Made by a program: the position numbers and the translations under genes. A stretch of 64,000 nucleotides of DNA from Actinoplanes sp. L3-i22 (lineage in GTDB: Bacteria; Actinomycetota; Actinomycetes; Mycobacteriales; Micromonosporaceae). This document shows, in pieces, positions 52,473 through 61,846 of this stretch. Position 1 is the stretch's first letter. Every line of letters begins with the position of its first letter. The stretch covers positions 10,777,501-10,841,500 of the forward strand of contig NZ_AP024745.1 of assembly GCF_019704555.1 (NCBI RefSeq), in the 5' to 3' direction. The notes beneath the pieces were generated by a model, which saw only the letters and a list, made by a program, of their open reading frames with translations, had not been told where the DNA came from and made no database searches.

Positions 52473-52479
52473 CTCGTGG

Positions 52480-52552
52480 TAGTCCCAGCGGGATTCGAAC
52501 CCGCGCTACCGCCGTGAGAGGGCGGCGTCCTAGGCCACTAGACGATGGGACC
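52480..52552 (-). tRNA. tRNA-Glu (CTC), copy 1
   Basis: 73 bases with a complete cloverleaf: acceptor GGTCCCA/TGGGACT (closing G1-U72 wobble), D-arm TCTAGTGGCCTAGGA, anticodon stem CCGCC/GGCGG with loop CTCTCAC (anticodon CTC), T-arm with GGTTCGAATCC. CCA follows A73 in the genome. Identical to the copy at 52869-52941. Confidence 0.97.
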
Positions 52553-52831
52553 AAGAGCCTTCCGTACACCGCCTGCTTCAGCGGCGAGAGGAACTTTAGC
52601 AGCACCGCAGCCGAATCCTCGAATCGGCCGCCCCGCCTCGTGACCACCCCCACAGCCGCGCCCACCGGCGCCCAAGACCGACCCCACAGCCGCACCCACC
52701 GACGCCCGGAACCGGCCCCACAGCTCCGCCCACCCGGCGCCCAGGACCGGCCCCGCAGCCGCACTCATCAGCGCAAGAAACCAGCCCGCAGCCGCACCCA
52801 CCGACGCCGGAACCGGGCCCGGAATGCGGAA
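52553..52831. other. spacer between the two tRNA-Glu genes
   Basis: No gene. It contains the promoter region of tRNA-Glu copy 1 (a TAAAGT hexamer near 52590-52595 resembles a -10 box, without a convincing -35) and the 34-bp tandem repeats at 52650-52819. Confidence 0.5.
52650..52819. repeat. five imperfect 34-bp tandem repeats between tRNA-Glu genes
   Basis: Units start at 52650, 52684, 52718, 52753 and 52787, with lengths 34, 34, 35, 34 and 33. The common core is CCACAGCCGC-ACCCACCG-CGCCC followed by GAACCGGCC-like sequence. Units differ by several bases. Non-coding, between two identical tRNA genes. Confidence 0.7.
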
Positions 52832-52858
52832 AAACCCGCATCCGACGGATGCGGGTTT
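52832..52858 (-). terminator. terminator downstream of tRNA-Glu copy 2
   Basis: AAACCCGCATCC pairs perfectly (12 bp) with GGATGCGGGTTT around a 3-base loop; the minus-strand tail is TTTTTCC. The stem shares CCCGCATC with the terminator of copy 1, so tRNA and terminator were probably duplicated together. Confidence 0.92.
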
Positions 52859-52868
52859 CACCTGCTTG

Positions 52869-52941
52869 TAGTCCCAGCGGGATTCGAACCCGCGCTACCG
52901 CCGTGAGAGGGCGGCGTCCTAGGCCACTAGACGATGGGACC
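52869..52941 (-). tRNA. tRNA-Glu (CTC), copy 2
   Basis: 73 bases, identical to copy 1 including the G1-U72 closing pair. CCA is not encoded (CAA follows A73). The tRNA-Gln gene lies 56 bases upstream in the same direction, so the two may share a transcript. Confidence 0.97.
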
Positions 52942-52997
52942 AAAAACTGCTGTTGCGGTGAAGCTCCAGCGACGCCAACCCCGAAAGATCGACAGCG

Positions 52998-53069
52998 CTG
53001 GGGTACCAGGACTCGAACCTAGACTAACTGGACCAGAACCAGTTGGGCTGCCAATTACCCCATACCCCA
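52998..53069 (-). tRNA. tRNA-Gln (CTG)
   Basis: 72 bases with acceptor TGGGGTA/TACCCCA, anticodon stem ACTGG/CCAGT with loop TTCTGGT (anticodon CTG), T-arm GGTTCGAGTCC and discriminator G73. CCA is not encoded. A good promoter lies just upstream. Confidence 0.96.
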
Positions 53070-58412: not shown

Positions 58413-59987
58413 ATGGACTATCAGGTGTTCGACACGACGCTGCGCGACGGGGGGCAGCGCGAGGGAATCAGCTACACGGTCGCCGACAAGCTCGCCGTCG
58501 CGCGGTTGCTGGACGAGTTCGGCGTCGGTTTCATCGAGGGCGGCTGGCCGGGCGCCATGCCGAAGGACACCGAGTTCTTCGAACGCGCGAAGACCGAGCT
58601 CGAGCTGAAGAACGCGGTCCTGGTGGCATTCGGGGCGACCCGCAAGGCCAACGTCGACGTGGCCGGGGATCCGCAGGTCAAGGCCCTGCTGGACGCGGGC
58701 ACCCCGGTGGTCTGCGTGGTGGCCAAGTCGGACGTCCGGCACGTGGAGCGGGCGCTGCGCACCACGCCCGAGGAGAACCTGGCGATGGTCCGGGACACGG
58801 TCGAGCACCTGGTCGCGAACGGCCGGCGCGCGTTCGTGGACTGCGAGCACTTCTTCGACGGCTTCCGGTTCGACCCGGCGTACACCTCGTCGGTGGTCAA
58901 GACCGCGATCGACGCCGGCGCCGAGCGCGTGGTCATGTGCGACACCAACGGGGGCATGCTCCCCTCGATGATCACCAAGGCGATCAACGAGGTCGTCGAG
59001 CGCACCGGGGTGAGCGCCGACCGGCTCGGCATCCACTGCCAGAACGACACCGCGTGCGCGGTCGCGAACACCATCGCCGCGGTCGAGGCCGGGGTCGAGC
59101 ACTTCCAGTGCACCGCGAACGGATACGGCGAGCGCCCCGGCAACGCCGACCTGTTCGCCGTGGTCAGCAACCTGCAACTCAAGCTCGGGCGGAAGGTCCT
59201 ACCGGACGGATGCCTGGAGAAGGCGACGCGGGTCTCGTCCGCGCTCGCCGAGATCGCCAATATCGCCCCCGACACCCACCAGGCCTATGTCGGGGCCGCG
59301 GCGTTCGCCCACAAGGCGGGCCTGCACGCGAGTGCGATCAAGGTGGATCCGCTGCTGTACAACCACGTCGACCCGGCGGTTGTCGGCAATGACATGCGGA
59401 TCCTGGTGACCGAGATGGCCGGCCGGGCCAGCATCGAGCTCAAGAGTCGCGAGCTCGGCATCGACCTGGCCGGCCATCCGGACACCCTCTCCACGGTCAC
59501 CCGGAAGGTGAAGGACCTGGAGGCGGGCGGCTGGTCCTTCGAGGCCGCGGACGCCTCGTTCGAGCTGCTGGTGCGGAGTGAGCTCCCGGGCAGCGAGGTC
59601 ACCACGCCGTTCACGCTGGAGTCCTACCGGGTGCTGGTCGAGCACCGTGAGGACGGCAAGGTGATCTCCGAGGCGACCGTCAAGATCCGCGTCAAGGGCG
59701 AGCGGGTGATCGCCACCGCCGAGGGCAACGGCCCGGTCAACGCCCTCGACGAGGCGCTGCGCGGGGCGCTCTCCAACCACTACCCGGCGCTGAAGTCGTT
59801 CGAGCTGACCGACTTCAAGGTCCGGATCCTGGAAGGCACCCACGGCACCAACGCGATCACCCGCGTCCTGCTGGAGACCGGTGACCACCAGCGCGAGTGG
59901 ACCACGGTCGGCGTGCACGAGAACATCGTCGAGGCCAGCTGGACCGCGCTGGTCGACGCGCTCACCTACGGCTTGAGCAAGAGCTGA
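58413..59987 (+). CDS. cimA: (R)-citramalate synthase
   Basis: Condenses pyruvate and acetyl-CoA to citramalate, giving 2-oxobutyrate for isoleucine without threonine. 524 residues: MDYQVFDTTLRDGGQREGISYTV, FIEGGWPGAMPKD, CDTNGGMLPSMI, GIHCQNDTACAVANT and the HAGLHASAI catalytic block (KAGLHASAIKVD), followed by the C-terminal LeuA allosteric domain from about residue 390. The GGAGAT-free start has AAAGGA upstream. The last 22 bases overlap the convergent thrS-like gene. Expression is probably set by the upstream attenuator. Confidence 0.95.
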   Translation: MDYQVFDTTLRDGGQREGISYTVADKLAVARLLDEFGVGFIEGGWPGAMPKDTEFFERAKTELELKNAVLVAFGATRKANVDVAGDPQVKALLDAGTPVVCVVAKSDVRHVERALRTTPEENLAMVRDTVEHLVANGRRAFVDCEHFFDGFRFDPAYTSSVVKTAIDAGAERVVMCDTNGGMLPSMITKAINEVVERTGVSADRLGIHCQNDTACAVANTIAAVEAGVEHFQCTANGYGERPGNADLFAVVSNLQLKLGRKVLPDGCLEKATRVSSALAEIANIAPDTHQAYVGAAAFAHKAGLHASAIKVDPLLYNHVDPAVVGNDMRILVTEMAGRASIELKSRELGIDLAGHPDTLSTVTRKVKDLEAGGWSFEAADASFELLVRSELPGSEVTTPFTLESYRVLVEHREDGKVISEATVKIRVKGERVIATAEGNGPVNALDEALRGALSNHYPALKSFELTDFKVRILEGTHGTNAITRVLLETGDHQREWTTVGVHENIVEASWTALVDALTYGLSKS

Positions 59988-61168
59988 TCAGGTAGTCGGG
60001 CGGCGGCGACCGCGCTGATCAGTGCGATCGCCTCCGCCCCCGGCATCGGGTCCAGCTGCCGCCCGTCCCGCAGCCGCAGCGAAACCAGGCCCTCGGCGGC
60101 CTCTCGGGCGCCGATCACCGCGACGTAGGGCACCTTGGACGCAGCCCGGATCCGCGCCCCGAGCGAGCCGTCGTGATGTTCGGAAACCCGCAGCCCCGCG
60201 GCGACGGCGTCCCGGGCGAACGACGAGTCGACGCCGAGGGGCATGACGGCCAGTTGGATCGGGGCGTACCAGACCGGGAACGCGCCGCCGTGCTCCTCGA
60301 TGAGCTGGCCGAACAGGCGCTCCATCGACCCGGCCAGACTCCGGTGGACCATCACCGGGCGGGCCTTGGCGCCGGACGCGTCGATGTACGACAGATCGAA
60401 CCGCTCCGGCTGGTGGAAGTCGATCTGGACGGTGGCGATGGTCCACTCCCGGCCGGCCGCGTCCACGACCTGCACGTCGATCTTGGGACCGTAGAACGCG
60501 GCTTCGCCGGCCTTCACCTCGTACCCAATCCGCTCTGCAGAAAGCGCGCCCCGCAGCAAGGCCTCGCCGGCCGCCCAGGTCTCCTCCCGCCCACCGTATT
60601 TCTTTCCCGGCCCGCGCAGCGAGAGCTGGAAGCTCGCCGGCCGCAGGCCGAGCGCGGCGTGGGCCTCCCGCATCAGCCGCAGCACCCCGGCGACCTCGTC
60701 GGCGGCCTGCTCGGGCGCGCAGAAGACGTGCGAGTCGTTGAGCGCGATCGACCGCACCCGGGACAGGCCGCCGAGCACGCCGGACCGCTCCTGGCGGAAC
60801 ATCTGGCCCAGCTCGGCGATCCGCACCGGCAGATCCCGGTACGACCGTTGCCGCGCCCGGAAGATCAGCGCGTGATGCGGGCACATGCTGGGCCGCAGCA
60901 TCAGCTCGTCCGCACCGACCGGCATCGGCGGGAACATGTCGCCGGCGAAGTTCGCCAGGTGCCCGGAGAGCTCGAACATCTGCCGTTTGCCCAGCACCGG
61001 CGAGTACACGTGCTGGTAGCCGTGGCGGCGCTCGAGGTCGTGCAGGTAGTTCTCCACCTCGCGGCGCGCGGCGGCGCCGGCCGGGAGCCAGAACGGCAGG
61101 CCGGCGCCGATCAGCGGGTCGGAGTCGAAGAGGTCGAGCTCGCGGCCGAGTCTGCGGTGGTCGATCAT
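59966..61168 (-). CDS. thrS: short threonyl-tRNA synthetase (no TGS or editing domain)
   Basis: 400 residues versus about 640-690 for bacterial ThrRS. The N-terminal TGS and editing domains are absent. The catalytic core begins DHRRLGRELDLFDSDPLIGAG. Motif 2 region MLRPSMCPHHALIFR supplies the zinc Cys, DSHVFC the first zinc His and VMVHRSLAGSMERL the second. GSGVLGGLSRVR-like RSGVLGGLSRVR and the anticodon domain follow. It may be a second, starvation- or inhibitor-related ThrRS. GAAGGAGA lies upstream of the ATG. Upstream is a Thr-codon attenuator. Confidence 0.9.
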   Translation of the reverse strand: MIDHRRLGRELDLFDSDPLIGAGLPFWLPAGAAARREVENYLHDLERRHGYQHVYSPVLGKRQMFELSGHLANFAGDMFPPMPVGADELMLRPSMCPHHALIFRARQRSYRDLPVRIAELGQMFRQERSGVLGGLSRVRSIALNDSHVFCAPEQAADEVAGVLRLMREAHAALGLRPASFQLSLRGPGKKYGGREETWAAGEALLRGALSAERIGYEVKAGEAAFYGPKIDVQVVDAAGREWTIATVQIDFHQPERFDLSYIDASGAKARPVMVHRSLAGSMERLFGQLIEEHGGAFPVWYAPIQLAVMPLGVDSSFARDAVAAGLRVSEHHDGSLGARIRAASKVPYVAVIGAREAAEGLVSLRLRDGRQLDPMPGAEAIALISAVAAARLPDQLLLKP

Positions 61169-61205
61169 GACGGGTCTCCTTCGAGAGAGGGCAACCCGCG
61201 GCCAC

Positions 61206-61275
61206 GAAACAGGCCCCGGGCGATTGCCCGAGGCCAGAGTCGTCAGCGCGACTCGACGCCGGGAGGTCCCGGCGT
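61206..61275 (-). promoter_or_regulatory. threonine attenuator of the short thrS
   Basis: Read on the minus strand three hairpins follow the Thr codons: ACGCCGGG/CCCGGCGT (61256-61275), GAGTCG/CGACTC (61237-61254) and the terminator GGCCTCGGGC/GCCCGGGGCC (61212-61235, ten pairs with one T-G) followed by TGTTTCG. The first hairpin overlaps the leader codons right after the Thr triplet, so a stalled ribosome would disturb it. Confidence 0.7.
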
Positions 61276-61299
61276 GGTCGTCATCGCGCTGCTGTACAT
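61243..61299 (-). CDS. thrS leader peptide with three Thr codons
   Basis: 18 codons: MYSSAMTTTPGPPGVESR, then TGA, from an ATG with AAGGT nine bases upstream. A shorter start at the second Met gives MTTTP. Three consecutive ACG/ACC codons precede the hairpins and terminator before thrS. It lies 10 bases after the GNAT gene stop, so the attenuator may also be reached by read-through. Confidence 0.65.
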   Translation of the reverse strand: MYSSAMTTTPGPPGVESR

Positions 61300-61309
61300 G
61301 TCGCCGACC

Positions 61310-61846
61310 TTAGGCCCGGTCGTCATGACGGGCCAACCAGTTTTCCGCGACGATCTGGTACAGGTGGTGGTCCTGCCACTCCCCGGCGATCTTGAGGTAG
61401 CGCGGCGCCGTGCCGAACCGCTCGAAGCCGTTCTTCAGCAGCACCCGCTGCGACCGCTCGTTGGTCAGCAGCGTGCCGGCCTCGACCCGGTGCAGGTCGT
61501 ACTCGGTGAACGCGCGCCGCAGGATCTCGGCGACCGCGAACGACGCCACCCCCCGGCCGGCGTGCGCCGAGGCCACCCAGTAGCCCAGGCTGCACGACTG
61601 GAACGGGCCGCGGACCAGGTTGTTCAGGTTGACCCGGCCGATCAGCTCGCCGTCGGCCCGGATCACGTGCGGCAGCGAGCCGCCGCCGCGCAGCACCTCC
61701 GAGACGATCTTCCGCTGGCCGTCCTCGGTGTAGTAGCTGTCGTCGCGGATCGGGTCCCAGGGCGCCAGGTAGTCCCGGTTCGCGGCCAGGACGGCGGCCA
61801 GCTCGGGCACGTCGTCCACGGTCAGTGGGCGGATGGTCAGGCTCAT
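61310..61846 (-). CDS. RimJ/RimL-type GNAT acetyltransferase
   Basis: 178 residues beginning MSLTIRPLTVDDVPELA. RVNLNNLVRGPFQSCSLGYWV and ILRRAFTEYDLHRVEAGTLLTNERSQRVLLKNGF are typical of the ribosomal-protein/antibiotic acetyltransferase group; the acetyl-CoA loop is AHAGRGVASFAVAE. Coupled by ATGA to the upstream EEP-family gene. The acceptor is unknown. Confidence 0.88.
   Translation of the reverse strand: MSLTIRPLTVDDVPELAAVLAANRDYLAPWDPIRDDSYYTEDGQRKIVSEVLRGGGSLPHVIRADGELIGRVNLNNLVRGPFQSCSLGYWVASAHAGRGVASFAVAEILRRAFTEYDLHRVEAGTLLTNERSQRVLLKNGFERFGTAPRYLKIAGEWQDHHLYQIVAENWLARHDDRA

Follow-up and report, generated by a model that had tools for sequence, protein, structure and literature searches.

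Leader-peptide attenuators have been described for aminoacyl-tRNA synthetase genes in Streptomyces, for trpS and leuS (PMC1262725) and, in S. lividans, for alaS, leuS, trpS, and thrS (PMC8079986). The closest case is S. lividans TK24, where a leaderless thrL (MKRVRPFLETTPGFVPAR, followed by a stop codon) was reported in 2021 before thrS (SLIV_19412 / SLIV_19410; PMC8079986). In S. coelicolor, thrS2 was reported in 2020 to be activated by WblC within the antibiotic-induced WblC regulon (PMC7157823). Here a related locus is described in Actinoplanes sp. L3-i22 (Micromonosporaceae). It consists of a short, thrS2-like threonyl-tRNA synthetase (ThrRS) gene and, before it, a leader open reading frame (ORF) with three threonine codons. 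Both lie on the minus strand of a 64,000-nucleotide window (NZ_AP024745.1, positions 10,777,501 to 10,841,500; all positions below are those of the window and all leader features are on its minus strand). The locus probably represents a ribosome-stalling attenuator which reads the supply of threonyl-tRNA and controls a stress-type, editing-free second ThrRS.

The leader ORF (61243..61299) is predicted to encode MYSSAMTTTPGPPGVESR, followed by a stop codon, with MYSSAM ahead of three consecutive threonines and PGPPGVESR behind them. The threonine codons are ACG ACC ACG (61273..61281), and the first base of the ORF lies 7 nt past a -10 element. The S. lividans thrL is clearly the same kind of leader. 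It is likewise a leaderless leader peptide with a threonine run before a thrS gene (PMC8079986), and it resembles leaders found here before short thrS genes, for example that of S. tendae (MKRACSSLMTTPGTVPAR, L105). It differs in having two threonine codons where the window leader has three. In addition, the parts of that paper dealing with thrL give one hairpin, call termination unclear, and describe neither pairing of the Shine-Dalgarno (SD) sequence nor conservation of the leader (PMC8079986). SLIV_19410 is probably the short paralog, and S. coelicolor thrS2 likely is too. The latter is a second thrS under WblC, and the window has a GAAAWY motif 3 nt before the -35 element, but the main text of PMC7157823 nowhere uses the word 'leader'. 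As a separate observation, the S. lividans metL leader (MSTTSDRTPATEATTTPGARCMCRRMCAF, followed by a stop codon) also contains TTTPG, like the threonine leader of the window (PMC8079986, Table 4).

Other described systems share fewer features with the locus. The actinobacterial attenuators of the trp operon, trpS, and leuS also combine a leader ORF containing regulatory codons with alternative hairpins, and trpS and leuS are synthetase genes as well, but they concern other amino acids and are read as terminators (PMC1262725). The same survey found no conserved threonine structures. In the LEU element before leuA the codons of the leader share one structure with the SD of leuA, as is the case here. 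There, however, the leucine codon run itself pairs with the SD, whereas in the present locus a separate anti-SD strand co-varies with the loop of a hairpin, P3 (PMC1262725). Anabaena ThrRS T2 is also a second ThrRS, induced by stress and impaired in proofreading, which accompanies an accurate, constitutively expressed enzyme. The T2 gene belongs to a Zur-controlled operon induced by zinc limitation, whereas here a single gene follows a threonine-codon leader and no conserved neighbour was found (PMC4787780). An initial annotation of the window, made from the sequence alone, had described a truncated ThrRS without TGS and editing domains behind a leader encoding three threonines, and both descriptions are borne out. 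Its remark that such control would be unusual in actinobacteria was overstated, given the synthetase attenuators already in print. Clade-wide conservation of the leader, a truncated target, SD coupling, and a WblC box at the leader were not found in the open-access literature searched, and the coupling of the leader to the ribosome-binding site of the gene itself appears to be new.

The leader was compared across related genomes in three sets of loci, from the same family, from named genomes, and from the class. The sets share some genomes and their counts are not independent. In the family, all 70 loci read have a leader with a threonine run before the short thrS, 68 with three threonines and 2 with two (L024, L033). 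These loci cover all but 8 of the 78 family genomes that carry a short copy (the 8 are G089, G087, G098, G055, G086, G070, G024, G022). In all 70 loci an in-frame RTG has a TANNNT 6-8 nt ahead of it, which is the spacing of a leaderless transcript. This spacing was a search condition in the named and class sets, and only the 70 family loci test it. The named-genome search yielded 80 loci, and the leader is present in 76 of the 79 having at least 100 nt upstream. Among these are loci of Streptomyces, Kitasatospora, Jiangella, Catenulispora, Amycolatopsis, Nonomuraea, Prauserella, and others. The exceptions are Actinoplanes sp. TFC3 (L078), with a leader that has sequence resembling the hairpins P2 and P3 described below and one threonine codon left, Streptomyces sp. 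ms191 (L128), which kept a P3-like hairpin with no such leader seen (both by eye), and a locus near a contig end (L093). L078 and L128 are natural tests of the model. Among the class loci outside the family, the leader was found in 44 of the 45 fetched, the one miss being cut by a contig end; one of the 46 hits (G410, at a contig edge) was not fetched.

The same kind of scan applied to the 600 nt before full-length thrS genes found no such leader (0/21). The leader before the short genes, with its 68 runs of three and 2 of two in 70 loci, is therefore more than chance. A covariance model of the leader recovers the window locus in its own genome (E 4e-16). The next hit is partial (E 0.0098), and therefore no second copy of the leader was seen in this genome. 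Codon choice in the run is nearly uniform. Across 190 leaders the 564 threonine codons comprise 547 ACG, 15 ACC, and 2 ACT, whereas seven genes of the window use ACC 83 and ACG 42 times among 125 threonine codons. This near-exclusive use of ACG makes isoacceptor-specific sensing testable, although the last ACG also belongs to P2.

The window leader RNA folds better than its shuffled versions (z -4.5, 0/200). Helix P1 joins the first leader codons (5' strand CAGCGCGA, segment 1, 61284..61291) to bases around the leader stop (3' strand UCGCGCUG, 61244..61251, which covers part of the stop codon). P1 encloses P2, whose 5' strand CGCCGGG (61268..61274) starts within the last threonine codon, so that the final ACG of the run doubles as part of the helix, and whose 3' strand CCCGGCG (61257..61263) is segment 2. 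These are followed by P3 (GGCCUCGGGCAAUCGCCCGGGGCC, segments 3 and 4, 61212..61235), a terminator-like hairpin of -21.9 kcal/mol which begins 7 nt past the leader stop. Across the 70 loci of the family a strong hairpin is found 7-35 nt past the stop. The sequence of P1 varies widely among loci, and own strands pair better than swapped ones, both in the 70 family loci (-19.2 vs -16.3 kcal/mol) and in the 167 unique leaders of all sets (-15.7 vs -14.4), with 0/5000 permutations in each case.

The 5' arm of P3 carries CCGGG in 67 of the 70 family loci. Among other strong hairpins of the same loci and the window the motif is present in 66 of 617, an upper estimate of the background, which includes the reverse strands of some leader hairpins. 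With the motif conserved, the P2 3' strand can therefore pair with the P3 5' arm. The resulting 2:3 hairpin (61227..61263) is predicted when a ribosome covers the threonine codons. In 161 leaders, with the transcript folded up to the P3 loop and the ribosome placed on it, pairing of the P3 5' arm to the leader was 0.98 with the ribosome stalled on threonine, 0.11 without a ribosome, and 0.33 with the ribosome at the stop. It was clearly higher in the stalled state in 156 of them. The corresponding values for the window are 0.82, 0.00, and 0.01. In these folding models the hairpins are mutually exclusive and would be chosen by the position of the ribosome.

The SD of the short thrS, AAGGAG (segment 6, 61176..61181), belongs to a further predicted hairpin, P4, with the 5' strand GCGGGUU (61193..61199) and the 3' strand GACCCGU (61170..61176). 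The anti-SD zone GGUUGCCC (segment 5, 61189..61196) can also pair with GGGCAAUC (segment 4, 61222..61229), which lies within P3, by 8 pairs base by base. Counterparts in other loci are GGCGAUCC with GGAUCGCC (L022), GGGCGACC with GGUCGCCC (L015), CGAGACGCCC with GGGUGUCUCG (L069), and GGCGGGUG with CACCCGCC (L202). Both pairings co-vary. In 163 leaders the anti-SD strand and its own SD region (5:6) gave -18.6 vs -15.6, and the P3 loop strand and its own anti-SD (4:5) gave -17.1 vs -14.8, each with 0/2000 permutations and z -13. The remaining 27 of the 190 leaders were left out because of a misplaced start codon or a segment that was too short or too long, and 2 further leaders were left out of the folding used for ribosome placement and SD exposure.

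When only unique loop segments were kept (67), both 5:6 and 4:5 held (z -9.2 and -8.5, 0/5000 each), and control pairings of the loop segment with the spacer, the SD region, and the leader gave no such signal. The permutation tests are made without a tree model, a concern which the unique segments and negative controls lessen but do not remove. The definition of segment 4 was widened to take in the loop of P3 after a first test without the loop failed: a 4:5 helix formed from the P3 3' arm alone gave no consistent signal, as 1944, 138, and 1950 of 2000 permutations in the three sets did at least as well as the own strands. By its co-variation with the anti-SD, the P3 loop thus acts as if it were a second SD side. 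Taken together, 4:5 and 5:6 suggest a chain in which the pairings 1:2, 3:4, and 5:6 are exchanged for 2:3 and 4:5 with the SD free. The SD coupling indicates that translation initiation may be what is controlled, either together with termination or in its place.

The attenuator would operate as follows. A putative WblC/WhiB7-type promoter would direct transcription to start right at the start codon of the leader. When threonyl-tRNA is ample, the ribosome would reach the leader stop, segment 2 would be covered or held in P1/P2, and P3 would form. The anti-SD strand would then pair with the thrS SD, which is predicted to be paired in this off state, and expression would be low. When threonyl-tRNA runs low, either because the cell is starved of threonine or because the main ThrRS has failed, the ribosome would stall on the threonine codons and block P1/P2, and segment 2 would capture the P3 5' arm. 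The freed P3 loop strand could take the anti-SD and release the SD, which would bring the chain into its second state. The inducer would be the shortage of threonyl-tRNA and the main readout translation initiation, and termination at P3 may add to this control or replace it. The computational support consists of the conserved threonine codons, the leaderless arrangement, co-variation of P1, 4:5, and 5:6, and, when the transcript is folded as it grows, the switch to 2:3.

Several results weigh against this model. The P3 5' arm of the window itself reads CUCGGG and is one of the 3 of 70 without CCGGG, and in the window 2:3 and 4:5 have three bases in common. Swap tests of 2:3 are weak (189/5000 permutations, and 45, 408, and 1218 of 2000 in three sets), which is expected if both strands hardly vary. 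For the window RNA with a stalled ribosome, P3 + P4 is favoured at equilibrium over a fold with 4:5 forced (-50.7 vs -42.6 kcal/mol), and the switch would therefore have to depend on which segments are transcribed first, as it does in classical attenuators. Stalling raises the mean predicted SD exposure only a little, from 0.291 to 0.315. Compared with shuffled segments 4, this rise has a p of 0.012 if only the part of the P3 5' arm used by 2:3 is masked; with the whole arm masked, exposure is no different from the shuffles (p 0.76). In the window, SD exposure drops from 0.35 to 0.30 when the ribosome is stalled, and the anti-SD and segment 4 score barely above shuffles (9.04 vs 8.57).

The strongest alternative is a classical transcription attenuator, in which P3 would be an intrinsic terminator and 2:3 the antiterminator, with the SD hairpin constant or in a separate role. 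It is rather unlikely. In its favour, P3 is a strong hairpin placed after the leader, switching between 2:3 and P1/P2 is predicted by folding, and trp-type attenuators occur in Streptomyces (PMC1262725). The 8 nt past P3 are enriched in T for a GC-rich genome, with a mean of 3.54 T in family, 3.22 in named, and 3.22 in class loci (3 of the 44 class loci were left out of this count). However, the longest T run is at most 2 in 44/70 family, 66/76 named, and 37/41 class loci, and the S. lividans authors report one hairpin and no U-rich sequence in the thrL parts of their paper (PMC8079986). With so weak a U-tract (mean 3.2-3.5 T in 8 nt), termination at P3 is therefore only a possibility. A terminator also leaves the co-variation of the P3 loop with the anti-SD unexplained.

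The initial annotation had listed three nested hairpins and a terminator. This list is corrected here to P1 enclosing P2, then the strong, terminator-like P3 with its weak U-tract, and then a further hairpin, not mentioned in that annotation, which pairs the thrS SD with the anti-SD segment. Its attenuation reading was right in kind and incomplete on the readout: a terminator is only one possibility because the SD of the gene belongs to the same co-varying pairings. The threonine-codon run very probably lets a starved ribosome switch the short thrS on.

The leader promoter (61307-61345) sits inside the 3' end of the upstream GNAT (RimJ-like) gene, and its -10 element TAAGGT (61307..61312) overlaps the TAA stop of that gene. 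A -35-like TTGGCC (61331..61336) and GAAAAC (61340..61345), 3 nt before it and 27 nt before the -10 element, precede it. The order is GAAAAC, TGG, TTGGCC, 18 nt, TAAGGT, 7 nt, ATG. The WblC box described for S. coelicolor reads GAAAWY and ends 3 nt ahead of the -35 element (PMC7157823). Judged by its sequence, the window promoter fits this WblC/WhiB7 type, with GAAAWY at that distance and a TANNNT -10 element. An exact box was found 25-28 nt before the -10 element in 57 of the 189 leaders with enough sequence, in 48 of these at 27 nt. At 26-28 nt there are 56 exact boxes and 60 with one mismatch (116/189), compared to 0.0% and 0.8% in shuffles, and the remaining 73 leaders have a box with two or more mismatches. 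Sigma-E binding targets in ethanol-stressed S. coelicolor include the threonyl-tRNA synthetase SCO3778 (PMC10771440).

It is possible, if somewhat short of an even chance, that the short ThrRS is a doubly gated stress synthetase. WblC would open the promoter when translation is under attack, and the leaderless threonine leader would open the message only if threonyl-tRNA is short. The second gate would act via the chain of six segments, with the P3 loop imitating the SD side and drawing off the anti-SD.

A WblC-type box would also suit a leader whose peptide is itself sensed, by nascent-chain or antibiotic-dependent arrest as in drug-inducible leaders, and not by starvation at threonine codons. 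S. coelicolor thrS2 is in the antibiotic-induced regulon (PMC7157823), and in the class-level loci the peptide end TTTP..VPAR is well conserved. In the family of Actinoplanes, however, the peptide around the threonine run changes freely (PGxPG.., PRRR, PETVPAR) while the threonine codons and the helices stay constant, and the conserved amino acids coincide with the strands of P1 and P2. Sensing of the peptide is thus improbable. Even less credible is an upstream ORF with no threonine-specific role which merely aids thrS translation, for instance by reinitiation. Reinitiation has been proposed at actinobacterial leaders (PMC4833913), but it leaves unexplained the full threonine run in 68 of 70 family loci, the near-exclusive ACG, and the alternative helices. 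A T-box sensing tRNA-Thr directly, of the kind present before ileS in several actinobacteria (PMC1262725), is ruled out as far as Rfam models reach, in agreement with the initial annotation, as the Rfam scan of the window, run at gathering thresholds, gives 3 tRNAs and nothing else, and the short leader is already filled by the ORF and the hairpins.

The target of the proposed ribosome-stalling attenuator, the short ThrRS gene, occupies 59966..61168 on the minus strand, with its start codon at 61168. The 400 aa protein matches positions 172-561 of the 565 of TIGR00418 (416 bits, cut-off 384). Pfam models detect the class II core, the anticodon-binding domain, and a weaker histidyl-tRNA synthetase (HisRS)-type core; they give no match to a TGS or editing domain, and the TIGR00418 alignment begins only at 172. 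The top solved-structure match is 1nyq, a threonyl-tRNA synthetase of S. aureus. The zinc ligands Cys/His/His and the arginines of motifs 2 and 3, located by their E. coli numbering, are retained in 150 of 150 short copies, and therefore the short ThrRS should charge tRNA. Its nearest named relatives are those of A. siamensis (87%), A. liguriensis (87%), and A. cyaneus (86%). A borrelidin-resistant paralog was also considered. At the site of E. coli ThrRS L489, the borrelidin site compared (PMC4389257), 123 of the 150 short enzymes carry Q, with K found in 24, M in 2, and R in 1, but the site does not distinguish the two kinds of enzyme because the full-length enzyme of the same genome also has Q (by eye).

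A second, full-length thrS was sought in the genome and found as a frame of 669 aa (G000:C1:9859110-9860303, on a 12.0-Mb single contig). The two proteins are 41% identical over their shared part, and the N-terminal 240 residues of the full-length ThrRS have a single match in this genome. Across the family the short copy is present in 78 of 121 genomes (at least 51% identity, hand count) and the full-length N-terminal part is matched in 120 of 121. The sole genome without such a match is 69% complete and has no match in the short-copy search either. Five rows of the full-length N-terminal search carry a stop inside the match, but two of these genomes (G056 and G111, of the same genus and with a short copy) have open frames of 676 and 662 aa. 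Therefore no genome was found which clearly relies on the short copy. Within the genus the short copy is present in 4 of 8 sampled genomes, and it is therefore an accessory gene. Among 296 genomes drawn from the class, 48 carry a short copy (E 1e-100 or better), spread over five families. In L033, L053, L061, and L064 (G043, G039, G047, G062) one stop lies inside the short thrS match; these are possibly decaying copies or alignment ends.

No conserved operon partner of the short thrS was found among 80 loci. The second-widest ORF cluster (36/80 loci) consists mostly of antisense ORFs over thrS or its surroundings, and the next clusters reach 18/80. In the window, a citramalate synthase gene (58413-59987, plus strand; TIGR00977, 603 bits) overlaps the 3' end of the short thrS tail to tail by 22 nt (59966-59987). 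Farther away, a minus-strand tRNA cluster (52477-53069) contains two tRNA-Glu(CTC) and one tRNA-Gln(CTG).

The short ThrRS is read here as a backup synthetase for conditions in which the main ThrRS fails or is inhibited. The attenuator would make it possible to predict, in a way open to testing, when actinobacteria switch on a second ThrRS that does not proofread, and hence when more serine-for-threonine errors may be accepted. A WblC-type antibiotic-stress promoter would be linked to a direct sensor of threonyl-tRNA, and the co-varying P3 loop, anti-SD, and SD would form a compact natural RNA-switch chain from the stalled ribosome to the start site. If the double gating is true, the locus would represent a ribosome-stalled translational attenuator of an aminoacyl-tRNA synthetase gene, present in at least five actinobacterial families, and a guard against failure or inhibition of the main ThrRS, with proofreading as the price.

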